Shown one piece after another: positions 2,127 to 53,399 of a stretch of DNA of 64,000 bases. The notes beneath the pieces are model-generated. The model made no database searches and was not told where the DNA came from. It was given only the letters and a program-made list of their open reading frames with translations. The first letter of the stretch is position 1. Every line of letters begins with the position of its first letter. Source of the DNA: Longibaculum muris (GTDB lineage Bacteria; Bacillota_I; Bacilli_A; Erysipelotrichales; Coprobacillaceae). The stretch is taken from contig NZ_SMCQ01000014.1 in the NCBI RefSeq assembly GCF_004343035.1, forward strand, positions 1 to 64,000, given 5' to 3'. The position numbers and the translations under genes were made by a program.

Positions 2127-2933
2127 CTATTCTCCTATCTGAAAGTGTTTAACAAAAGCAGCAGCTATCCCATCGTCATCTACACTCTTTGTTATATCAC
2201 TTGCTATATTTTTTAGTTCTTGAACTGCATTTCCCATAGCTATACCATGTTTAACCAATTGAAACATCTCTATATCATTAACTCCATCCCCAAACGCATA
2301 AGTATTTTCATAATCAATACCTAACTTTTGATAAAGATAAGCACATGCAGTTCCTTTAGTAAATCCCTTATTATAAACATCCATACGAATAAGTCCTGTT
2401 GCATAAGGAATCATAGTAAACTCATCTTCCAATTCATGGTATGCATTCCATAAATCATCAGCATTTTCAAATAAAACACAACAGCTTATAGCTTTCACAT
2501 CTTGTGCTGTAAAGTTTTCTATTACTCCTATTGGTCTTTTCGAAGTACCTTGAAACATTTCACGATGCTTAATTATTAATTCATCATCTAAGAATGCACA
2601 CCACTGCCCATCATGTCCATTATACATAGAGCGCCCATTATATTTCCTGTATACATCCATTTGTTTTTGAATTTGTGCTGTACTCATAATATCATCTATA
2701 AGTACGACATTATCAAAACGAATATAATGTCCATCATTGCAAATATATCCATCAAATTCAATATCTTTCACACTTTGTGGAACTTCACCTCGCGCTGTTG
2801 CAATAACAATCTTATGCCCTTGTTTTTTAAATTCTATTAATGCATCTTTTGTCTTTTGAGTAGGATGCATCAGCCCATGAGGTACATTGACAAGTGTTCC
2901 ATCAATATCAAAAAAAACTATTTTTTTATCCAT
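2127..2933 (-). CDS. Cof-type HAD-IIB phosphatase
   Basis: A 268-residue cytoplasmic haloacid-dehalogenase phosphatase. Motif I is FFDIDGTLV at the N-terminus with nucleophile and acid/base aspartates. The C-terminal motif IV region reads FGDGVNDIEMFQ followed by GIAMGNA, the classic Cof/YidA signature. Members dephosphorylate sugar phosphates, FMN or similar small phosphates. I chose the ATG at 2933 because GGAGG lies 6 nt upstream; longer frames add an AT-rich N-terminal tail without a ribosome site. It leads a two-gene unit with the esterase. Confidence 0.9.
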   Translation of the reverse strand: MDKKIVFFDIDGTLVNVPHGLMHPTQKTKDALIEFKKQGHKIVIATARGEVPQSVKDIEFDGYICNDGHYIRFDNVVLIDDIMSTAQIQKQMDVYRKYNGRSMYNGHDGQWCAFLDDELIIKHREMFQGTSKRPIGVIENFTAQDVKAISCCVLFENADDLWNAYHELEDEFTMIPYATGLIRMDVYNKGFTKGTACAYLYQKLGIDYENTYAFGDGVNDIEMFQLVKHGIAMGNAVQELKNIASDITKSVDDDGIAAAFVKHFQIGE

Positions 2934-3000
2934 ATCTTTTCCTCCTTCATTTATTATATAAAAAAAACATTTTATAATCATAAAAATATCAAGATATGAA

Positions 3001-3035
3001 AAAGGAAGTCTCTTTTACTAAAAACTTCCTTTTTA
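3001..3035 (-). terminator. Terminator after the Rpn nuclease gene
   Basis: AAAGGAAGT pairs with ACTTCCTTT across a 14-nt loop and ends in a T-run on the minus strand. It lies 9 nt beyond the stop of the gene at 3044-4015. Confidence 0.75.
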
Positions 3036-3043
3036 TTCCAAGT

Positions 3044-4015
3044 TTACTCTTTTATACAATCTGCAGCTTCATATATCTTTTCTAGACTTGCTTTTTCAAT
3101 AAGTAAGTCAAATATCTTTTCGTACTGCTCTACGGATAGATTTTCCAGAAATCCTGTTTCAGCTTGTGGATATGTCTTGGTAAACAATTTTAATACGAAA
3201 TCTCTTTTACCAAACTTTGTACCTTCAGTTAGTCCAAGCTTTTTCCCTTCAGCCAATCCCTCTTGCAGCCCTTCTTCTTTCCCTTCGTCACGTTCTCTTT
3301 TCATTCTTGCCTGTCTTGCTCGCTTGTTTAAATCACGGTTGAATGCCATGTCCTGTAGAATCATATCTTCATTAAAATCATCTGCCTTCTTCTCCATGAT
3401 ATCCACCACCTTCTTCTTTAACTTCATTATATCATCATCGATTCCATTTTTAAATATGTAGATCGCTGTTTCTAGTTCATTGAAGTTCTCTAATCCCTTT
3501 TCCTTCTTTAGGATATTGATATAGGGTAGATATATGTAGATTCTCGTGATCAAGTTATGTTTCTCCTGATTCCCTGATTCATTCTGACTGACATACCTGT
3601 CTATCAGTACCAGGTTGTCCTTATCCAGGTCATCGATGAATATCAGCTGAAACACATGATGAATGTTGGTGACATAGTCATCACCTCTCTTTTGCTGTTC
3701 TACGAGTAGTCTTGCTCCATAGATCTGGAACCTTTGATACTGCTCCTGGTCAAGTGATGAATTCTGCATTTCGACATCACAGATTTCACCATCTTCATTG
3801 GTGACTCTGATATCCAGAATCATATCCTTATCTTCGACATGCTGAGGATTGAGATCAGGATTCAAGACCTTGAGTGAATGGCAGTCAATGCCAGCGATGT
3901 TTTCAATGATGAGTTTAAGGAGATAGATAGAATCAGGATCTTGATCATCTCTTAAGGTATACTTGAACAAAACATCATTTTTAAAATCAACAATTTTCTT
4001 TCTTTTCATTATCAT
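3044..4015 (-). CDS. Rpn/PD-(D/E)XK nuclease family protein (putative transposase)
   Basis: A 323-residue protein of the Rpn recombination-promoting nuclease group. Residues 1-30 carry FKNDVLFKYTL, the typical opening. The nuclease core shows DIRVTNEDGEICDVEMQNS (about 68-86), with a D and an E-x-Q in place of the textbook (D/E)-x-K. A C-terminal helix contains repeated EGxxEG units (EEGLQEGLAEGKKLG), also typical. Related proteins cut DNA and promote RecA-independent recombination. The third quarter of the gene is visibly richer in G and C than its neighbours, suggesting recent transfer. The start is the ATG at 4015 with GGAGGG 6 nt upstream; that ribosome site lies in one arm of a hairpin. 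Confidence 0.85.
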   Translation of the reverse strand: MIMKRKKIVDFKNDVLFKYTLRDDQDPDSIYLLKLIIENIAGIDCHSLKVLNPDLNPQHVEDKDMILDIRVTNEDGEICDVEMQNSSLDQEQYQRFQIYGARLLVEQQKRGDDYVTNIHHVFQLIFIDDLDKDNLVLIDRYVSQNESGNQEKHNLITRIYIYLPYINILKKEKGLENFNELETAIYIFKNGIDDDIMKLKKKVVDIMEKKADDFNEDMILQDMAFNRDLNKRARQARMKRERDEGKEEGLQEGLAEGKKLGLTEGTKFGKRDFVLKLFTKTYPQAETGFLENLSVEQYEKIFDLLIEKASLEKIYEAADCIKE

Positions 4016-45331: not shown

Positions 45332-45372
45332 AAACGAGTGATATTACTATTCTAATAATAATATCACTCTTT
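45332..45372 (-). terminator. Terminator after the HipA-like gene
   Basis: GAGTGATATTA pairs perfectly with TAATATCACTC across a 12-nt loop, with T residues after it on the minus strand; the stop codon of the HipA-like gene is in the loop. Confidence 0.85.
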
Positions 45373-46471
45373 CTTGAATTATTTTTTCTAATTGTTTTAA
45401 ACGTTTATTTGATAATTTATATCTTGTATTTCTATCAAACTTAAAGTTAATTAATTTTCTTAATTTATCTTTTTGTCTAGATGTCATTAAAGGTTTTACA
45501 AATCCTATAAAATCCTGATAGGTTGCAGGTAGACGAGTTGAAACATAAGTATTTATATCATTAAAATCGCTGTCCATTGCATAGCATAATAAAGATAATC
45601 CATTATCAAAGATTGGTGCAGGATCTATTATCTTGTTTGTATGACTATCAACTAATAATCCAAAATTACCAAAGTGTCTATCTTCATTTAAGATAACAGC
45701 ATCAAAAACCAGCATATCTATAAGTTCTTGATAATAATCTTCACCTAGATTCTTATAGTAATCTATAACGGCTTCAATACCGCCAGTTTTTACTAATCTA
45801 CCAACAGGAATAAATGAAATATTCTGGCTTGTGAACAATTCACAAGTTGAGCATAATTTTCCTTTCCATTTAGATAAATCATAATCAATATGATTTAATT
45901 CCATTGTTTTTGCAACTTGACTTGCATAAAATTCTGAATATGGTTCTAGCCCACTATTCGCAAAACCCTCTGTTCCTGATTTATAAAGAATGACTTTTCC
46001 TTTTATTCTCCTCCATGATTTTGCAAGCATACCATTTGTAGTAAATTCTGGAGAAGAACGAAAAGATGATCTTGTATAACTTCCATATCCAGTAAATGCA
46101 ATTGATGCAATATTTGTATTAAATGAATTTGTATAAAGGTTTTTATCAGCAAACAAATCTTTACAATCTTCTTTAACAACCCAATAACTATCATTGAGTG
46201 ATAAACCTTGACATATTTCAATAATACCCTTTGTATCTTTTTCGTTTAATCCAAGTCGTGCTAAAAAATTTGATACATATGCTCTATTTCTTGGAATAGT
46301 TCTTTTTTCCAGCCATCGCTTTAATGATTTATCATCAATTTCTAAATCTAAAGGAAGATGATTTTTCATATTTTCATTAAATGAAGTTATATGAACTTGT
46401 AATCCATCATTTGTATTTTCCATAGAAAAATACAATAAATCATTATCAAATTGTTTTAAGATATAATTCAT
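45347..46471 (-). CDS. Orphan HipA-like Ser/Thr kinase-fold protein
   Basis: A 374-residue protein. The kinase core has NEDRHFGNFG (about 262-271), with the catalytic Asp264 and Asn269, and DPAPIFDNGLSL with the metal-binding Asp289, as in HipA toxins. The N-terminal 120 residues are not obviously HipA_N. HipA phosphorylates GltX in other species, and is paired with HipB. No HipB gene is next to it. The true start is the ATG at 46471 with AAAGGGTGTG upstream; longer frames are antisense to the tmRNA. It lies downstream of the tmRNA gene in the same orientation. Confidence 0.75.
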   Translation of the reverse strand: MNYILKQFDNDLLYFSMENTNDGLQVHITSFNENMKNHLPLDLEIDDKSLKRWLEKRTIPRNRAYVSNFLARLGLNEKDTKGIIEICQGLSLNDSYWVVKEDCKDLFADKNLYTNSFNTNIASIAFTGYGSYTRSSFRSSPEFTTNGMLAKSWRRIKGKVILYKSGTEGFANSGLEPYSEFYASQVAKTMELNHIDYDLSKWKGKLCSTCELFTSQNISFIPVGRLVKTGGIEAVIDYYKNLGEDYYQELIDMLVFDAVILNEDRHFGNFGLLVDSHTNKIIDPAPIFDNGLSLLCYAMDSDFNDINTYVSTRLPATYQDFIGFVKPLMTSRQKDKLRKLINFKFDRNTRYKLSNKRLKQLEKIIQERVILLLE

Positions 46472-46537
46472 GAAAAACACACCCTTTCTATAAAAAACGA
46501 ATACATAAGTAATATGTATTCGATCAATTACTTTTAT

Positions 46538-46888
46538 GGTGGAGGCGGCGGGAATCGAACCCGCGTCCAAAAGCCGTCCCATATGAAGCGTCTACAGCTT
46601 ATCTTGTGGAATGGGTTTAACTAAGCTACGATCCACAAGCAGTCTTTCACTTAGCGATTCTGTAAATTTTCGTGATATAAGTCCAGACTCCTTACACCCT
46701 TATCCTATGAGTTATGGTACCAGTTATATAACTATAGGCACGCTATATAGTGGCAGCTTTCATGTCTATGTCGACTAAGCGAAAGCGTAATTAGTTTGTC
46801 TGTTTCCGGATATTTGTTTGTGCATGTAACGTGTGCCCACGGCTGCAACTCCATTCAAACTGACCCCTGTCGAATCCAAGACGCCCCC
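46538..46888 (-). ncRNA. ssrA: Transfer-messenger RNA (tmRNA)
   Basis: A 351-nt RNA. The 5' end GGGGGCGTC and the 3' end CGCCTCCACCA make the tRNA-like acceptor stem (one G-U pair), and GGGTTCGATTCCC forms the T arm, ending in an encoded CCA. A mRNA-like segment ends in a stop TAG after the frame GGAAACAGACAAACTAATTA..., giving a proposed tag GNRQTNYAFA. The 5' end begins 1-2 nt past the smpB stop codon. Its role is rescue of stalled ribosomes together with SmpB. The exact resume codon is inferred, not proven. Confidence 0.92.
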
Positions 46889-49950: not shown

Positions 49951-50463
49951 CTAATTTTTTATGTTCAATTTAAACACCTTTAATAAAATGGGTGCACATA
50001 AGAAAAAGAACAAAAAATTTCCCACTGCATGAAATGTATCAAACAATAATCCAGCTAAATAATAAACAATAAATAATGATGGTCCACCAATAACAAATTT
50101 ATCTAATGACACAATAAATCCAAAAACATATCCCATTATAAAAGCAAATATTGCCATAACTAATATATTTGGTTTTTGATTTAATTTTTTATAAAAATCA
50201 ACAATCATCTGTGTTAGTAAACATATCACTATCCATGCTAAAATTTGAAAGAAAGTCCAGATTCCCATCCCTAAATAAATGTTAGAAACTAAAGTTGTAA
50301 CTAAAGTTAATTTGATTCCAAATGCCAAACCAAAAATCATAACTGATAAAATAATAATCGATGTCACTGGTTTGACATTTGGAACAGCTTGTAAAGCTAT
50401 TCTAGAAGCAATATTGACTGCTGCTAAAATCCCAATCAGACTTATTTCTTTAACTTTACTCAT
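49951..50463 (-). CDS. ECF transporter S component, probable cobalamin-specific (CbrT-like)
   Basis: A 170-residue membrane protein with six predicted segments, the size and topology of energy-coupling-factor S components (PF12822-type). It has an alanine/glycine-rich early segment (IGILAAVNIASRIALQAVPN) and an ending FHAVGNFLFFFLCAPILLKVF typical of the group. The S component binds the vitamin and docks to a shared A-A'-T module encoded elsewhere. It is the third gene in an operon headed by a cobalamin riboswitch, so cobalamin or a precursor is its likely cargo. Its ATG (50463) overlaps the DUF4430 stop by 8 nt, without a strong ribosome site, which suggests coupling. Confidence 0.82.
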   Translation of the reverse strand: MSKVKEISLIGILAAVNIASRIALQAVPNVKPVTSIIILSVMIFGLAFGIKLTLVTTLVSNIYLGMGIWTFFQILAWIVICLLTQMIVDFYKKLNQKPNILVMAIFAFIMGYVFGFIVSLDKFVIGGPSLFIVYYLAGLLFDTFHAVGNFLFFFLCAPILLKVFKLNIKN

Positions 50464-51088
50464 TGACAATATAAATCCATTCTACTGTATCACCATTATT
50501 AACTTTATATGTTCCAGCACTGGCACTTGGAAAAGTACCATTGACTTTATATTTCCAACCAGATTGAGGTCCTTGGTCAAATTCATTTAATCCATTGATT
50601 CCTCTTACATAGATTGCTGGACCAAAACCATTGGTATTGACGTCTATCTTTTTCATTGTAGCTAGGCTTTTTAGAACATCATAGACACTTTGATCTTTTT
50701 CTATCTCAATAGTTTGATTAATAGTAAATACATCTGCTCCCTGTATGCTTACTTGAACTTTATCTTTTTGTGGTTTGACTTCTTCATATTTAGGTTTTTC
50801 TTGAGGAGTCTGTTGTGTTGTTTGGTTTGTTGTTGTATTGGTTGTCTGCTTTTTCTCTTTCTTTGTCGTTTCTGGCTGCTTTTCTTTCTTAGGTTTATCC
50901 TCAGTTTCTTTCTTATCTTCTTTTGTTGTTAGGGTGTCCTCTTTTTGAGGTGTCTCCACCGTTTCTGTTTTTTCAGCAACCGGCTTTTCTTTTGGCAAAG
51001 GTGTGGTTGTACGATAGATTCCAACAACACCGATAATGATAAAGCATATAACGACAAAGACTATTGTATATTTCTTTGTTTTATCCAA
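50456..51088 (-). CDS. Membrane-anchored DUF4430 protein, transcobalamin beta-domain-like
   Basis: About 210 residues. An N-terminal membrane anchor (about 6-25) is followed by a low-complexity Lys/Glu/Thr linker (about 30-105) that would span the cell wall, then a C-terminal DUF4430 domain. That domain reads VQVSIQGADVF, SVYDVLKSLA, FGPAIYVRGINGLNEF, QSGWKYKVNGTFPSA and ends GDTVEWIYIVN, matching the beta domain of animal transcobalamin and intrinsic factor. The preferred start is the TTG at 51088 with AAAGGAAG 8 nt upstream, which overlaps the preceding gene by 8 nt; an ATG at 51121 is the alternative. Cobalamin binding is inferred. Confidence 0.85.
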   Translation of the reverse strand: MDKTKKYTIVFVVICFIIIGVVGIYRTTTPLPKEKPVAEKTETVETPQKEDTLTTKEDKKETEDKPKKEKQPETTKKEKKQTTNTTTNQTTQQTPQEKPKYEEVKPQKDKVQVSIQGADVFTINQTIEIEKDQSVYDVLKSLATMKKIDVNTNGFGPAIYVRGINGLNEFDQGPQSGWKYKVNGTFPSASAGTYKVNNGDTVEWIYIVNE

Positions 51089-52178
51089 AATATTTTCTTC
51101 CTTTAACAACAACCCATCCACTCAATAACAACATTCCTAGATAAGCTCCTAATAGAGAACTATCACTTGTCTTAACGACTTTTGTCTTTTGCGGTTTAGC
51201 TTCATTGGTTTTATCTTTCTGTGGTGCTGGCTTGTTTTCTTCCTTTTTCACTAGTTCTTCCTTAACTTCCTCTTTAACAGGTTGAGATATAATCTCTTGA
51301 TATAAGGCTTGTGCACTCTTATAAAGTGAACCATGATTATAGTATCCAACAGCTTGCACACCTTGAAGTGTTGCATAATAGTTTTCTTCACCTAGCTCAC
51401 TATAATAAAAGCTTCCGTTGCTGTTTTGATATTTCAATAAAAGATCATAGGGATTATTGTCTCCCTTATTGTAAGTTGTTCCTTTGACCCCTGCTGCATC
51501 ATAAGCCAACAATCCCATCAAGACACATGCTTGGGTATTCACATTGACTCCCATATAGCTATCAGCATAGCCACCTGTTTCATCTTGTGTAGATTGAATG
51601 TAGGCAAGTGCCTGATCGATGACTTCTTGATATTTTGCTGTATCAACTAGACTTAATGCTTCAATGACCCATGCTGTAACATCTAAACTTGGACCCCAGC
51701 TTGAACCAAAGGCTCCTTGTTCATCTATCAATGATGCAAGATAATCTGCTGCAATAGCTAATTTATCAGATTTAATGACATAGAGTGCATAAACACCATA
51801 AAGCTGGAAATTGGCTTCTGTGGAATCTTTTTTCTTATCAAATGCCCCATTATCATGTACGCATCCTTCTAGCATCTCAACATAATTAACTCCTTGATAG
51901 TTTCTTGGATCATCCTTATGTAAAGTAAGCGCAATAACTGTCTTAGCAATATCAGAAGCATATCCGGTATTCACAATATTTTCCATTGGCAAAGATGATA
52001 CATCTAAACCTAATGATGCATAAGCAAAGACTTCATCTGTACTTTGTAATACGGTTTTCTTTTGATAATAGCTTTTTGCTGTCTGATAGCTTTCTTCATA
52101 ACTCATGGCATGAGTCATTGTGAACTGACTTGCTATCAAAGTCATCACAATCCATAGACTTGTTAAAACTTTTTTCAT
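51081..52178 (-). CDS. Exported alpha/alpha-barrel protein, intrinsic-factor/transcobalamin N-domain-like, C-terminally anchored
   Basis: A 365-residue exported protein. The signal peptide ends near residue 24 (THA before MS). Residues 40-290 are repeated helical units with glycine-rich turns (EGCVHDNGAF, SLIDEQGAFG, STQDETGGYAD, KYQNSNGSFYY), the pattern of terpenoid-cyclase-like alpha/alpha barrels found in the N-terminal domain of intrinsic factor and transcobalamin. A Lys/Glu/Pro linker follows, then a C-terminal VVKTSD motif, a membrane helix and KGRK, like a sorting signal. The start is the ATG at 52178 with TGGAGGAC upstream. It is first in the riboswitch operon. Confidence 0.82.
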   Translation of the reverse strand: MKKVLTSLWIVMTLIASQFTMTHAMSYEESYQTAKSYYQKKTVLQSTDEVFAYASLGLDVSSLPMENIVNTGYASDIAKTVIALTLHKDDPRNYQGVNYVEMLEGCVHDNGAFDKKKDSTEANFQLYGVYALYVIKSDKLAIAADYLASLIDEQGAFGSSWGPSLDVTAWVIEALSLVDTAKYQEVIDQALAYIQSTQDETGGYADSYMGVNVNTQACVLMGLLAYDAAGVKGTTYNKGDNNPYDLLLKYQNSNGSFYYSELGEENYYATLQGVQAVGYYNHGSLYKSAQALYQEIISQPVKEEVKEELVKKEENKPAPQKDKTNEAKPQKTKVVKTSDSSLLGAYLGMLLLSGWVVVKGRKYFG

Positions 52179-52202
52179 TTCTTTGTCCTCCAATTCTTCT
52201 AG

Positions 52203-52229
52203 ACAAAAAATAGGACGTACTCGTCCTAG
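52203..52229 (-). terminator. Terminator of the cobalamin riboswitch expression platform
   Basis: On the minus strand AGGACG-AGTA-CGTCCT is followed by ATTTTTTG, directly downstream of the riboswitch and 25 nt before the first gene's start codon. In family terms, ligand binding would favour this terminator and so shut off the operon when cobalamin is plentiful. Confidence 0.8.
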
Positions 52230-52440
52230 ACTTTAGACTAGAACTACTTTATTCACCGTAAAGTGTATTCTAAGATGTTGGCATGTATTCCGGCTCAAGT
52301 TCATCGTATCAGCGCCTTCCCAGTTTCCCAGTGACATATTGCTTCAACTCTCTTTTACGGCTGCGGGACAGCTCAGGATTTTCACCTGATTCCATTTTGA
52401 TAAAGTATCTTTATACTTTAACCAACAAATTTATCAACTT
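52230..52440 (-). promoter_or_regulatory. Cobalamin riboswitch
   Basis: On the minus strand the conserved blocks occur in order: GGTGAAAATCC, then GCTGTCCCGCAGCCGT, GTCACTGGGAA, GGGAAGGCGCTGA and a GAGCCGGAATACATGCC segment that corresponds to the B12-box region, followed by a terminator. This matches the adenosylcobalamin-type aptamer. It precedes the gene at 51081-52178 and, by polycistronic linkage, the DUF4430 and S-component genes. Confidence 0.92.
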
Positions 52441-52489
52441 TTACTTTGTCATTATATAATAATTTGTTTGATATTTACACATATATTTC

Positions 52490-52526
52490 AAAAAATACTG
52501 GTCATAGATATTTCTATCTATGACCA
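52490..52526 (-). terminator. Terminator after the second Rpn nuclease gene
   Basis: GGTCATAGATA pairs perfectly with TATCTATGACC over a 4-nt loop, then AGTATTTTTT on the minus strand. Confidence 0.88.
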
Positions 52527-52531
52527 TTGTA

Positions 52532-53338
52532 TTAGTTTGTACAAATAATTACTCTTATAAGTTTTGGTCTTTCTTCTTCAGGTAATCCTAATTCTTCCAT
52601 TGCTTCTTGATATGATATATTATGTTTCACGGCATAATTATTAATCATTTCAGCTTTTCCTTTTTGCCTTCCTTCATTAAATCCATCTTGTTTAGCCTTT
52701 TTTTCAAATTGACTTATACTTTCACACATTGCTTCTATCCCTCCTCGATCTTCTTTATAAAAACGTACTCTTTCTTTTAAAACTTCATAATACATATCAT
52801 CAGGATTTACATATACCAAATCATGGGCAAGTTTTCCTATTGGTGATTCATCCTGATATGCTGTATTCATAAAAATCAAATCTAAACCTTTTTGAGCTAT
52901 ATGATCATATTCATCATTTTCATCATGATCTATATAGTAAACTGTTTTCCCTTCATCAAATATATCTTCATTTGTAATAATGACAGTCGAAATAATTGGT
53001 AAACGACTCCACTCATGATTTGGCCAACTTGCTTTATTGAACTCTCTTTCTTCATACACCTCATTTCTTGTTTTGGCTGCATACTCTTGGGTATGTACAC
53101 ACACTCCAACAAAATGTCTCCCTTCTAATTCAAAGATAAAATCAAAAGGTAGATTATCTCTTTGAAATTCATATTTTGAATATACAGAAATAATATCTCC
53201 TTCATTAGGAAAGACAATATCTTTGAACAATTGGATACAACGATAATCTCTAAAAACTATCTTCATAAAGAGATTATCCATCAAACAACTTTGTTGAATT
53301 GCTGTTTCATACATTTCTTTTGTTATTTCAGTCTCCAT
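52532..53338 (-). CDS. Rpn/PD-(D/E)XK nuclease family protein (putative transposase)
   Basis: A 268-residue protein from the ATG at 53338, with GAGAGGTG upstream. The N-terminal MKIVFRDYRCIQLFKDIVFP and the core LPFDFIFELEGRHFVGV follow the Rpn-family layout, and the C-terminal EAMCESISQFEKKAKQDGFN plus GRQKGKAEM tail is also typical. In the position of the expected E-x-Q motif I read VGVCVHTQ, so a catalytic Glu may have been lost. Its upstream segment resembles that of the Rpn gene at 3044-4015. It lies between the B12 riboswitch operon and crcB. Confidence 0.75.
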   Translation of the reverse strand: METEITKEMYETAIQQSCLMDNLFMKIVFRDYRCIQLFKDIVFPNEGDIISVYSKYEFQRDNLPFDFIFELEGRHFVGVCVHTQEYAAKTRNEVYEEREFNKASWPNHEWSRLPIISTVIITNEDIFDEGKTVYYIDHDENDEYDHIAQKGLDLIFMNTAYQDESPIGKLAHDLVYVNPDDMYYEVLKERVRFYKEDRGGIEAMCESISQFEKKAKQDGFNEGRQKGKAEMINNYAVKHNISYQEAMEELGLPEEERPKLIRVIICTN

Positions 53339-53399
53339 TTTTTTCACCTCTCTTTCTTTTTAATTTTGAGAAAGTTTTCTTGATTTATCTTTTTATCAA

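Follow-up and report, generated by a model that had tools for sequence, protein, structure and literature searches.

A cobalamin riboswitch-headed operon of Longibaculum muris encodes two anchored surface proteins and a CbrT-like S component predicted to capture and import corrinoids

Longibaculum muris (Erysipelotrichales; Coprobacillaceae) carries, within the first 64,000 nucleotides of contig NZ_SMCQ01000014.1 (assembly GCF_004343035.1; this whole stretch is referred to below as the window), a three-gene operon for an alpha/alpha-toroid protein (P0001), a DUF4430 protein (P0002) and a CbrT-like S component of an energy-coupling factor (ECF) transporter (P0003) (Table 1). The trio follows a cobalamin riboswitch that covers the full RF00174 model (positions 1-189) at 105.8 bits (E = 1.8e-25; gathering score, 31.5; cmscan), and its genes are joined by two overlaps of 8 nt each. 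The riboswitch, the gene coordinates and the overlaps, all listed in a preliminary description of this DNA, were recovered when re-derived from the sequence and with cmscan. Between the aptamer and the toroid gene lies a terminator hairpin (TAGGACG-AGTA-CGTCCTA-TTTTTT), and a similar hairpin with altered stem letters occupies the same place at seven other loci (L003-L007, L011, and L014; L-numbers denote related loci and G-numbers genomes of relatives). Retention of the terminator despite changes in its stem is as expected for a putative OFF switch acting through transcription termination. Since a further terminator stands upstream of the riboswitch, the operon can be taken as an independent transcription unit. 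RF00174 and DUF4430 each occur once in the host genome, side by side, which is taken as more than coincidence. In the window, a 271-amino-acid (aa) open reading frame (ORF; 52532-53347) that by eye resembles the PD-(D/E)XK transposase family lies between crcB and the operon; at L003-L007 the riboswitch comes directly after a crcB-like gene.

Table 1. Coordinates of the operon and its parts in the window
Feature	Position	Strand	Remarks
Cobalamin riboswitch aptamer	52263..52441	-	cmscan RF00174; sole one in genome
Intrinsic terminator of riboswitch expression platform	52211..52228	-	7-bp stem, 4-nt loop, T6 tail
Toroid gene P0001, 365 aa	51081..52178	-	First gene of trio
P0001 signal peptide	52107-52178	-	By eye
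P0001 alpha/alpha toroid	about 51279-52106	-	AlphaFold2 model and Foldseek
P0001 linker and C-terminal hydrophobic anchor with degenerate sorting-like motif	about 51084-51278	-	
DUF4430 (SLBB) gene P0002, 210 aa, TTG start	50456..51088	-	PF14478 match; second gene of trio
P0002 N-terminal membrane anchor	about 51011-51067	-	
P0002 DUF4430 domain	50459-50767	-	PF14478
CbrT-like ECF S component gene P0003, 170 aa	49951..50463	-	phmmer to 6fnp_A; third gene of trio
Terminator after upstream neighbour gene	52499..52526	-	Sets start of separate transcription unit

The third gene product can be assigned by homology. Among PDB sequences, P0003 had a single significant phmmer match, the CbrT S component 6fnp_A (88 bits, E = 6.1e-24), the runner-up (E = 5.6) not being an S component, and P0003 scored below the Pfam gathering thresholds for generic S-component families; the label of CbrT-like transporter given earlier is therefore apt. 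CbrT transports cobalamin, which it binds with a dissociation constant of about 9 nM (PMC5997447). One EcfT gene beside two EcfA ATPase genes is encoded in the host genome away from the operon, in line with use of a shared group II ECF module. A BtuFCD system at the operon locus was considered and rejected, since no Peripla_BP_2 binding protein with a FecCD permease is encoded there. The single Peripla_BP_2 gene of the genome lies elsewhere, has no riboswitch, is near molybdo-hydroxylase-like genes (judged by sequence), and scores far below the BtuF cut-off. Also encoded in the genome are a MetH (about 803 aa) alongside a distinct activation-domain-like protein, and a B12-binding radical SAM protein. 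CbiD, the sole corrin-biosynthesis marker searched for, was not found in the host genome, nor were PduO-type (PF01923) or CobA-type (PF02572) adenosyltransferases. Because MetH and the B12 radical SAM protein are present and CbiD and both adenosyltransferase types are absent, the gene content fits a corrinoid scavenger whose demand would lie in methylcobalamin chemistry.

P0002, whose TTG start is found at the equivalent place in several orthologs, is predicted to consist of an uncleaved N-terminal membrane segment, a charged linker of roughly 80 residues rich in K, E, and T, and a C-terminal domain that matches PF14478 at 71.8 bits. A profile of the full proteins reached transcobalamin-2 among PDB sequences at E = 1.9, the linker swamping the search, and transcobalamin was not among the matches of a profile of the domain alone. 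Because these sequence profiles failed to reach transcobalamin convincingly, a structure search was needed for that link. AlphaFold2 models of the DUF4430 domain and of the toroid were built from the window proteins and those of five related loci. The predicted DUF4430 domain adopts a beta-grasp fold (predicted local distance difference test score [pLDDT], 91.4; predicted template modelling score [pTM], 0.83), and a Foldseek search of the PDB placed it nearest to 3u7z, the RUMGNA_00854 protein of Ruminococcus gnavus (template modelling score [TM], 0.79), with matches to the human transcobalamin beta domain 5no0 (E = 1e-5; TM, 0.76) and to intrinsic factor 2pmv (TM, 0.83). Below E = 0.001 the search returned 3u7z, the transcobalamin beta domain, full transcobalamins, haptocorrin, and intrinsic factor, and nothing else. 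The proposal that this half shares the beta-domain fold of transcobalamin and intrinsic factor is thus borne out by the predicted structure. In the model, strands E43-46 and E53-57 follow helix H28-38 and could correspond to the insert that contacts B12 in this clade, a beta-hairpin after the helix. The structure 3u7z, a product of structural genomics, was deposited as a "putative metal binding protein" under a title that assigns no function; it is probably a member of a corrinoid-related DUF4430 family.

The toroid protein P0001 shows weak sequence similarity to squalene cyclases and prenyltransferases. Its C terminus bears a T-x-D motif (TSD here and TGD in several relatives) followed by a hydrophobic segment and a basic tail, and because of this arrangement it is read as a probable wall-sorting or membrane anchor. 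The AlphaFold2 model is an alpha/alpha toroid (pLDDT, 90.9; pTM, 0.90), for which Foldseek returned squalene-hopene cyclase, drimenyl diphosphate synthase, prenyltransferases, and transcobalamin; the transcobalamin matches 7qbg (E = 2.8e-4) and 4zrp lie between E = 2.8e-4 and 6.2e-4 with a TM of about 0.6. Judged from the models, the match to transcobalamin is specific for the DUF4430 half and general for the toroid half, whose likeness holds at the level of the overall fold only. The polar positions most strongly conserved across the 23 toroid homologs are N98, D166, T168, N212, T215, Q216, and T270, and in the modelled secondary structure they fall where successive helices begin, in the first turn or just ahead of it. 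An alignment of the full set of 23 toroids proved too diverse to serve in a contig scan; with a closer alignment the scan gave 6 loci.

The genomic surroundings of the trio in relatives point to vitamin B12. Toroid homologs were found in 23 of 60 relatives (host genome counted), all of one family; the named genomes with close relatives belong to Massilimicrobiota, which NCBI taxonomy places in Erysipelotrichales, and to Candidatus Stoquefichus. Wherever the toroid locus is complete, a DUF4430 gene and an S component gene are part of the same operon. A cobalamin riboswitch lies upstream of 15 of the 23 toroid loci, and six (G008, G015, G016, G018, G024, and G026) are directly behind metH, family trios that lack the riboswitch being mostly in a metF-metH operon; the toroid locus of G027 adjoins a cobA-like gene. 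At L127 and L128, in species without a cobalamin riboswitch, the trio directly follows an activation-domain-like gene and metH, as if the metabolic operon had replaced the riboswitch. Viewed from the RNA, 21 of the 24 RF00174 sites counted in the family (loci L003-L022, L056, L057, L093, L094, and L119-L123) are directly upstream of a DUF4430 system, so that the control by B12 proposed earlier stands and the system is not found mostly away from riboswitches. The three exceptions are two sites in G004, one of them inspected in sequence, and one in G014 before a lone S component. At this last locus (L122), the riboswitch (2076-2241) is followed by a CbrT-like S component gene (2706-3203, plus strand) with no DUF4430 gene beside it. 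In a phylum-wide survey, for which loci were counted by hand from tables, DUF4430 was found in 45 of 295 genomes; of the 40 inspected, 28 lie just downstream of a cobalamin riboswitch (RF00174, RF01482, or RF01689), 4 more adjoin metH, and 8 do neither, one of these (L058) seeming unrelated to B12. Corrinoid uptake is, from this gene context, very likely the role of the operon.

Three architectures were distinguished among these loci. One consists of riboswitch, DUF4430 gene, and CbrT-like gene with no toroid, as at L065, where the operon continues into a gene that is PduO-like by sequence. In another, found in other Bacilli (L071, L075, L080, L082, L083, L090, and L092), the riboswitch is followed by genes for a DUF4430-toroid fusion lipoprotein and for a further, small DUF4430 protein, and then by a CbrT-like gene. 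The third is that of the window, with toroid and DUF4430 on separate genes. The fused lipoprotein aligns with the toroid family over 189 columns (hhalign E = 1.5e-12) and, through its N-terminal part, with the DUF4430 domain (E = 4.3e-6), which Pfam also assigns; the small DUF4430 proteins align with the P0002 domain at E = 5e-9. Where the two domains are separate, their sequences appear to vary together: over 19 loci, the distance correlation between toroid and DUF4430 was 0.67, compared with 0.48-0.49 between either and the S component, and the partial correlation given the S component was 0.56, a value reached by 0 of 5,000 permutations. This co-variation is suggestive only, the 19 sequences being related and their rates unequal. 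Together, natural fusions and co-variation support joint action of the two halves.

The toroid is not the only protein found in its place, since PQQ-like (pyrroloquinoline quinone-like) propeller proteins fill the toroid slot in five sister operons. These operons contain riboswitch, DUF4430, EcfT, EcfA, and S component, and the slot proteins (L132, 4440-6641, minus strand; L133, 3973-6339, plus; L134, 4289-6646, plus; L121, 267-1703, minus; L123, 5916-8279, plus) are anchored and were assigned as PQQ-like beta-propellers by Pfam where scanned. In the related operons L093, L094, and L139, a toroid stands in exactly the propeller slot. BtuG of Bacteroides, a B12 binder, is likewise a beta-propeller.

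We consider it probable that the trio is a riboswitch-repressed operon for capture and import of a corrinoid such as B12, in which the toroid and DUF4430 proteins jointly hold the corrinoid and pass it to the CbrT-like S component. At low intracellular corrinoid, the riboswitch would let transcription proceed past the terminator and the three proteins would be made. The wall- or membrane-anchored toroid protein would capture corrinoid outside the membrane, and the membrane-tethered DUF4430 domain, on its long linker, would close over it, most likely in a transcobalamin-like sandwich of two chains anchored at opposite ends. The surface pair would then deliver the corrinoid to P0003, import would be driven by the single housekeeping EcfA-EcfA-EcfT module, and the vitamin would feed MetH and the B12-binding radical SAM enzyme until, in replete cells, the operon is repressed. 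The alpha and beta domains of transcobalamin, when expressed apart, form the holo complex only upon addition of cobalamin (PMC5599065), and by this analogy a two-chain sandwich is plausible for P0001 and P0002. More tentatively, and with slightly less confidence than doubt, we propose that the anchored proteins act as a two-chain transcobalamin that closes around one corrinoid when triggered by the ligand, and that the exchange of toroid for beta-propeller would mark the SLBB domain as a general corrinoid "lid" whose capture partners can be swapped.

Several observations weigh against parts of this interpretation. Seven loci (L065, L069, L076, L077, L079, L084, and L088) have DUF4430 and CbrT genes without a toroid, which is therefore not obligatory; fused relatives carry a second DUF4430 protein, and P0002 may correspond to that protein rather than to the fused half. 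Genome G010 (L129) has a full trio, yet neither an RF00174 site nor any hit to a B12-binding domain, and one DUF4430 protein (L058 of G057) stands outside any B12 context. A FecCD-type importer (L118) is also encoded by the host and could conceivably take up B12. As for the toroid, its sequence profile reached terpene cyclases and their relatives only among PDB sequences and not transcobalamin, and in the structure search terpene cyclases and prenyltransferases outscored transcobalamin, for which the TM was only 0.49-0.61. The equation of P0001 with the transcobalamin alpha domain thus stands for the general fold, transcobalamin being among the significant matches, although other folds of the same kind match better. 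The preliminary picture of a transcobalamin-like binder split into halves is partly supported, fusions and co-variation speaking for joint action. Because minimal riboswitch-DUF4430-CbrT operons exist, however, it is the DUF4430 protein that seems to accompany the S component constantly, and the toroid is better read as an added capture half than as an equal one.

These same operons fit a simpler alternative in which DUF4430 binds the corrinoid and hands it over to CbrT by itself, while the toroid serves independently as a surface binder or as a wall scaffold, with no shared sandwich. The propeller proteins in the toroid slot favour it as well, as does the crystallization of the transcobalamin beta domain with cyanocobalamin in the absence of the alpha domain (5np4; PMC5599065). 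However, natural fusions of both domains, a toroid-DUF4430 co-variation beyond the operon background, and the transcobalamin precedent all speak for cooperation, and we regard independent action as unlikely, if worth keeping in mind. Somewhat better placed, though still on the unlikely side, is the proposal that the same architecture, by either mechanism, serves another corrinoid (cobinamide, pseudo-B12, or other cobamides). Gut communities hold several cobamides, and the host lacks PF01923 and PF02572 adenosyltransferases; in addition, CbrT also transports cobinamide (PMC5997447). The evidence in hand does not, however, discriminate among corrinoids, and CbiD, as noted, is absent.

Two further explanations were considered. 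The toroid could be an enzyme of the terpene cyclase, prenyltransferase, or polysaccharide lyase-like kind, the cluster's link to B12 being only regulatory, and squalene-hopene cyclase and prenyltransferases are indeed its best matches. Yet none of the 23 homologs has the DxDD motif of class II terpene cyclases in its toroid region, the protein is exported and surface anchored, and at complete loci the toroid always occurs with DUF4430 and ECF genes; an enzymatic role is very improbable, and a terpene-cyclase function for P0001 was rejected because DxDD is absent and the protein is exported. We find it hardly credible that the ligand is of a different kind, such as heme or cobalt, and that the riboswitch reflects cross-regulation. 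An ECF transporter for heme is known (PMC7299338) and cobalt genes, too, occur under cobalamin riboswitches (PMC3766115), but CbrT is the only significant solved homolog of the S component, neighbours include metH operons and PduO-like genes, and without CbiD cobalt would not be needed for corrin synthesis.

The idea of bacterial B12 scavenging by SLBB and toroid proteins is not new. The SLBB superfamily was defined by Burroughs et al. (2007), who reported bacterial proteins in which SLBB and toroid are fused in either order and pointed out their surface anchors, an additional SLBB protein, and operons that include CbiO/CbiQ; they predicted both B12 scavenging by these proteins and their transfer to animals (PMC1796856). 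The present system shares with that clade the exported, anchored SLBB and toroid domains and the ECF-type operon genes, the clade often having a second SLBB protein, but here the domains are on separate chains anchored at opposite ends, next to a CbrT-like S component gene and under the only cobalamin riboswitch in the genome; the 2007 paper deals with fusions, and neither ECF S components nor riboswitches are mentioned in it. Animal transcobalamin, intrinsic factor, and haptocorrin have in common with the trio the beta-grasp fold (TM, 0.73-0.83) and an alpha/alpha toroid, alike only at the general fold level, but they have receptors, for which the trio has no counterpart, and transcobalamin and intrinsic factor are each one secreted chain instead of two anchored chains on two genes. 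In ECF-CbrT of Lactobacillus delbrueckii (6FNP), the S component is homologous and the ECF module is likewise shared and encoded apart, but the cluster described there (nrdJ-cbrS-cbrT-pduO) names no surface binding protein (PMC5997447). The surface lipoproteins BtuG and BtuH of Bacteroides also capture B12 before the transporter in gut bacteria (PMC6143338, PMC8941943), but BtuG is a beta-propeller that works with the outer-membrane protein BtuB, so that both folds and envelope differ. In the openly accessible literature searched, subscription papers being outside this scope, neither experimental work on DUF4430 proteins of bacteria nor an account of the toroid-DUF4430-CbrT trio was found; the two papers that link DUF4430 with cobalamin do not deal with the domain's role in bacteria. 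Thus, the trio belongs to a kind of system that was predicted in 2007 and is apparently uncharacterized; new in it are the separate anchoring of the two chains, the CbrT type of the importer, and the position under the genome's only cobalamin riboswitch.

Elsewhere in the window, the longest reading of a 411-aa ORF (45347-46582) begins inside the transfer-messenger RNA gene (46537-46888, minus strand), and its true start is therefore probably a later ATG.

In sum, surface capture of B12 by Gram-positive gut bacteria unable to make it is poorly known in comparison with BtuG and BtuH of Bacteroides, and the trio, with two soluble domains and one S component, offers a small and concrete test system. 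A role in B12 uptake was partly foreseen and is less surprising for that reason; what can be put directly to the test is the split pair with its opposite anchors and its exchangeable partner, which would bear on the origin of intrinsic factor. Should joint corrinoid binding prove true, DUF4430 would gain a function and a class of surface proteins annotated as "DUF4430" and squalene-cyclase-like would be explained. Binding of a corrinoid by the two halves together would also provide natural two-gene support for the 2007 proposal that the intrinsic factor and transcobalamin of animals descend from bacterial proteins that scavenge B12.

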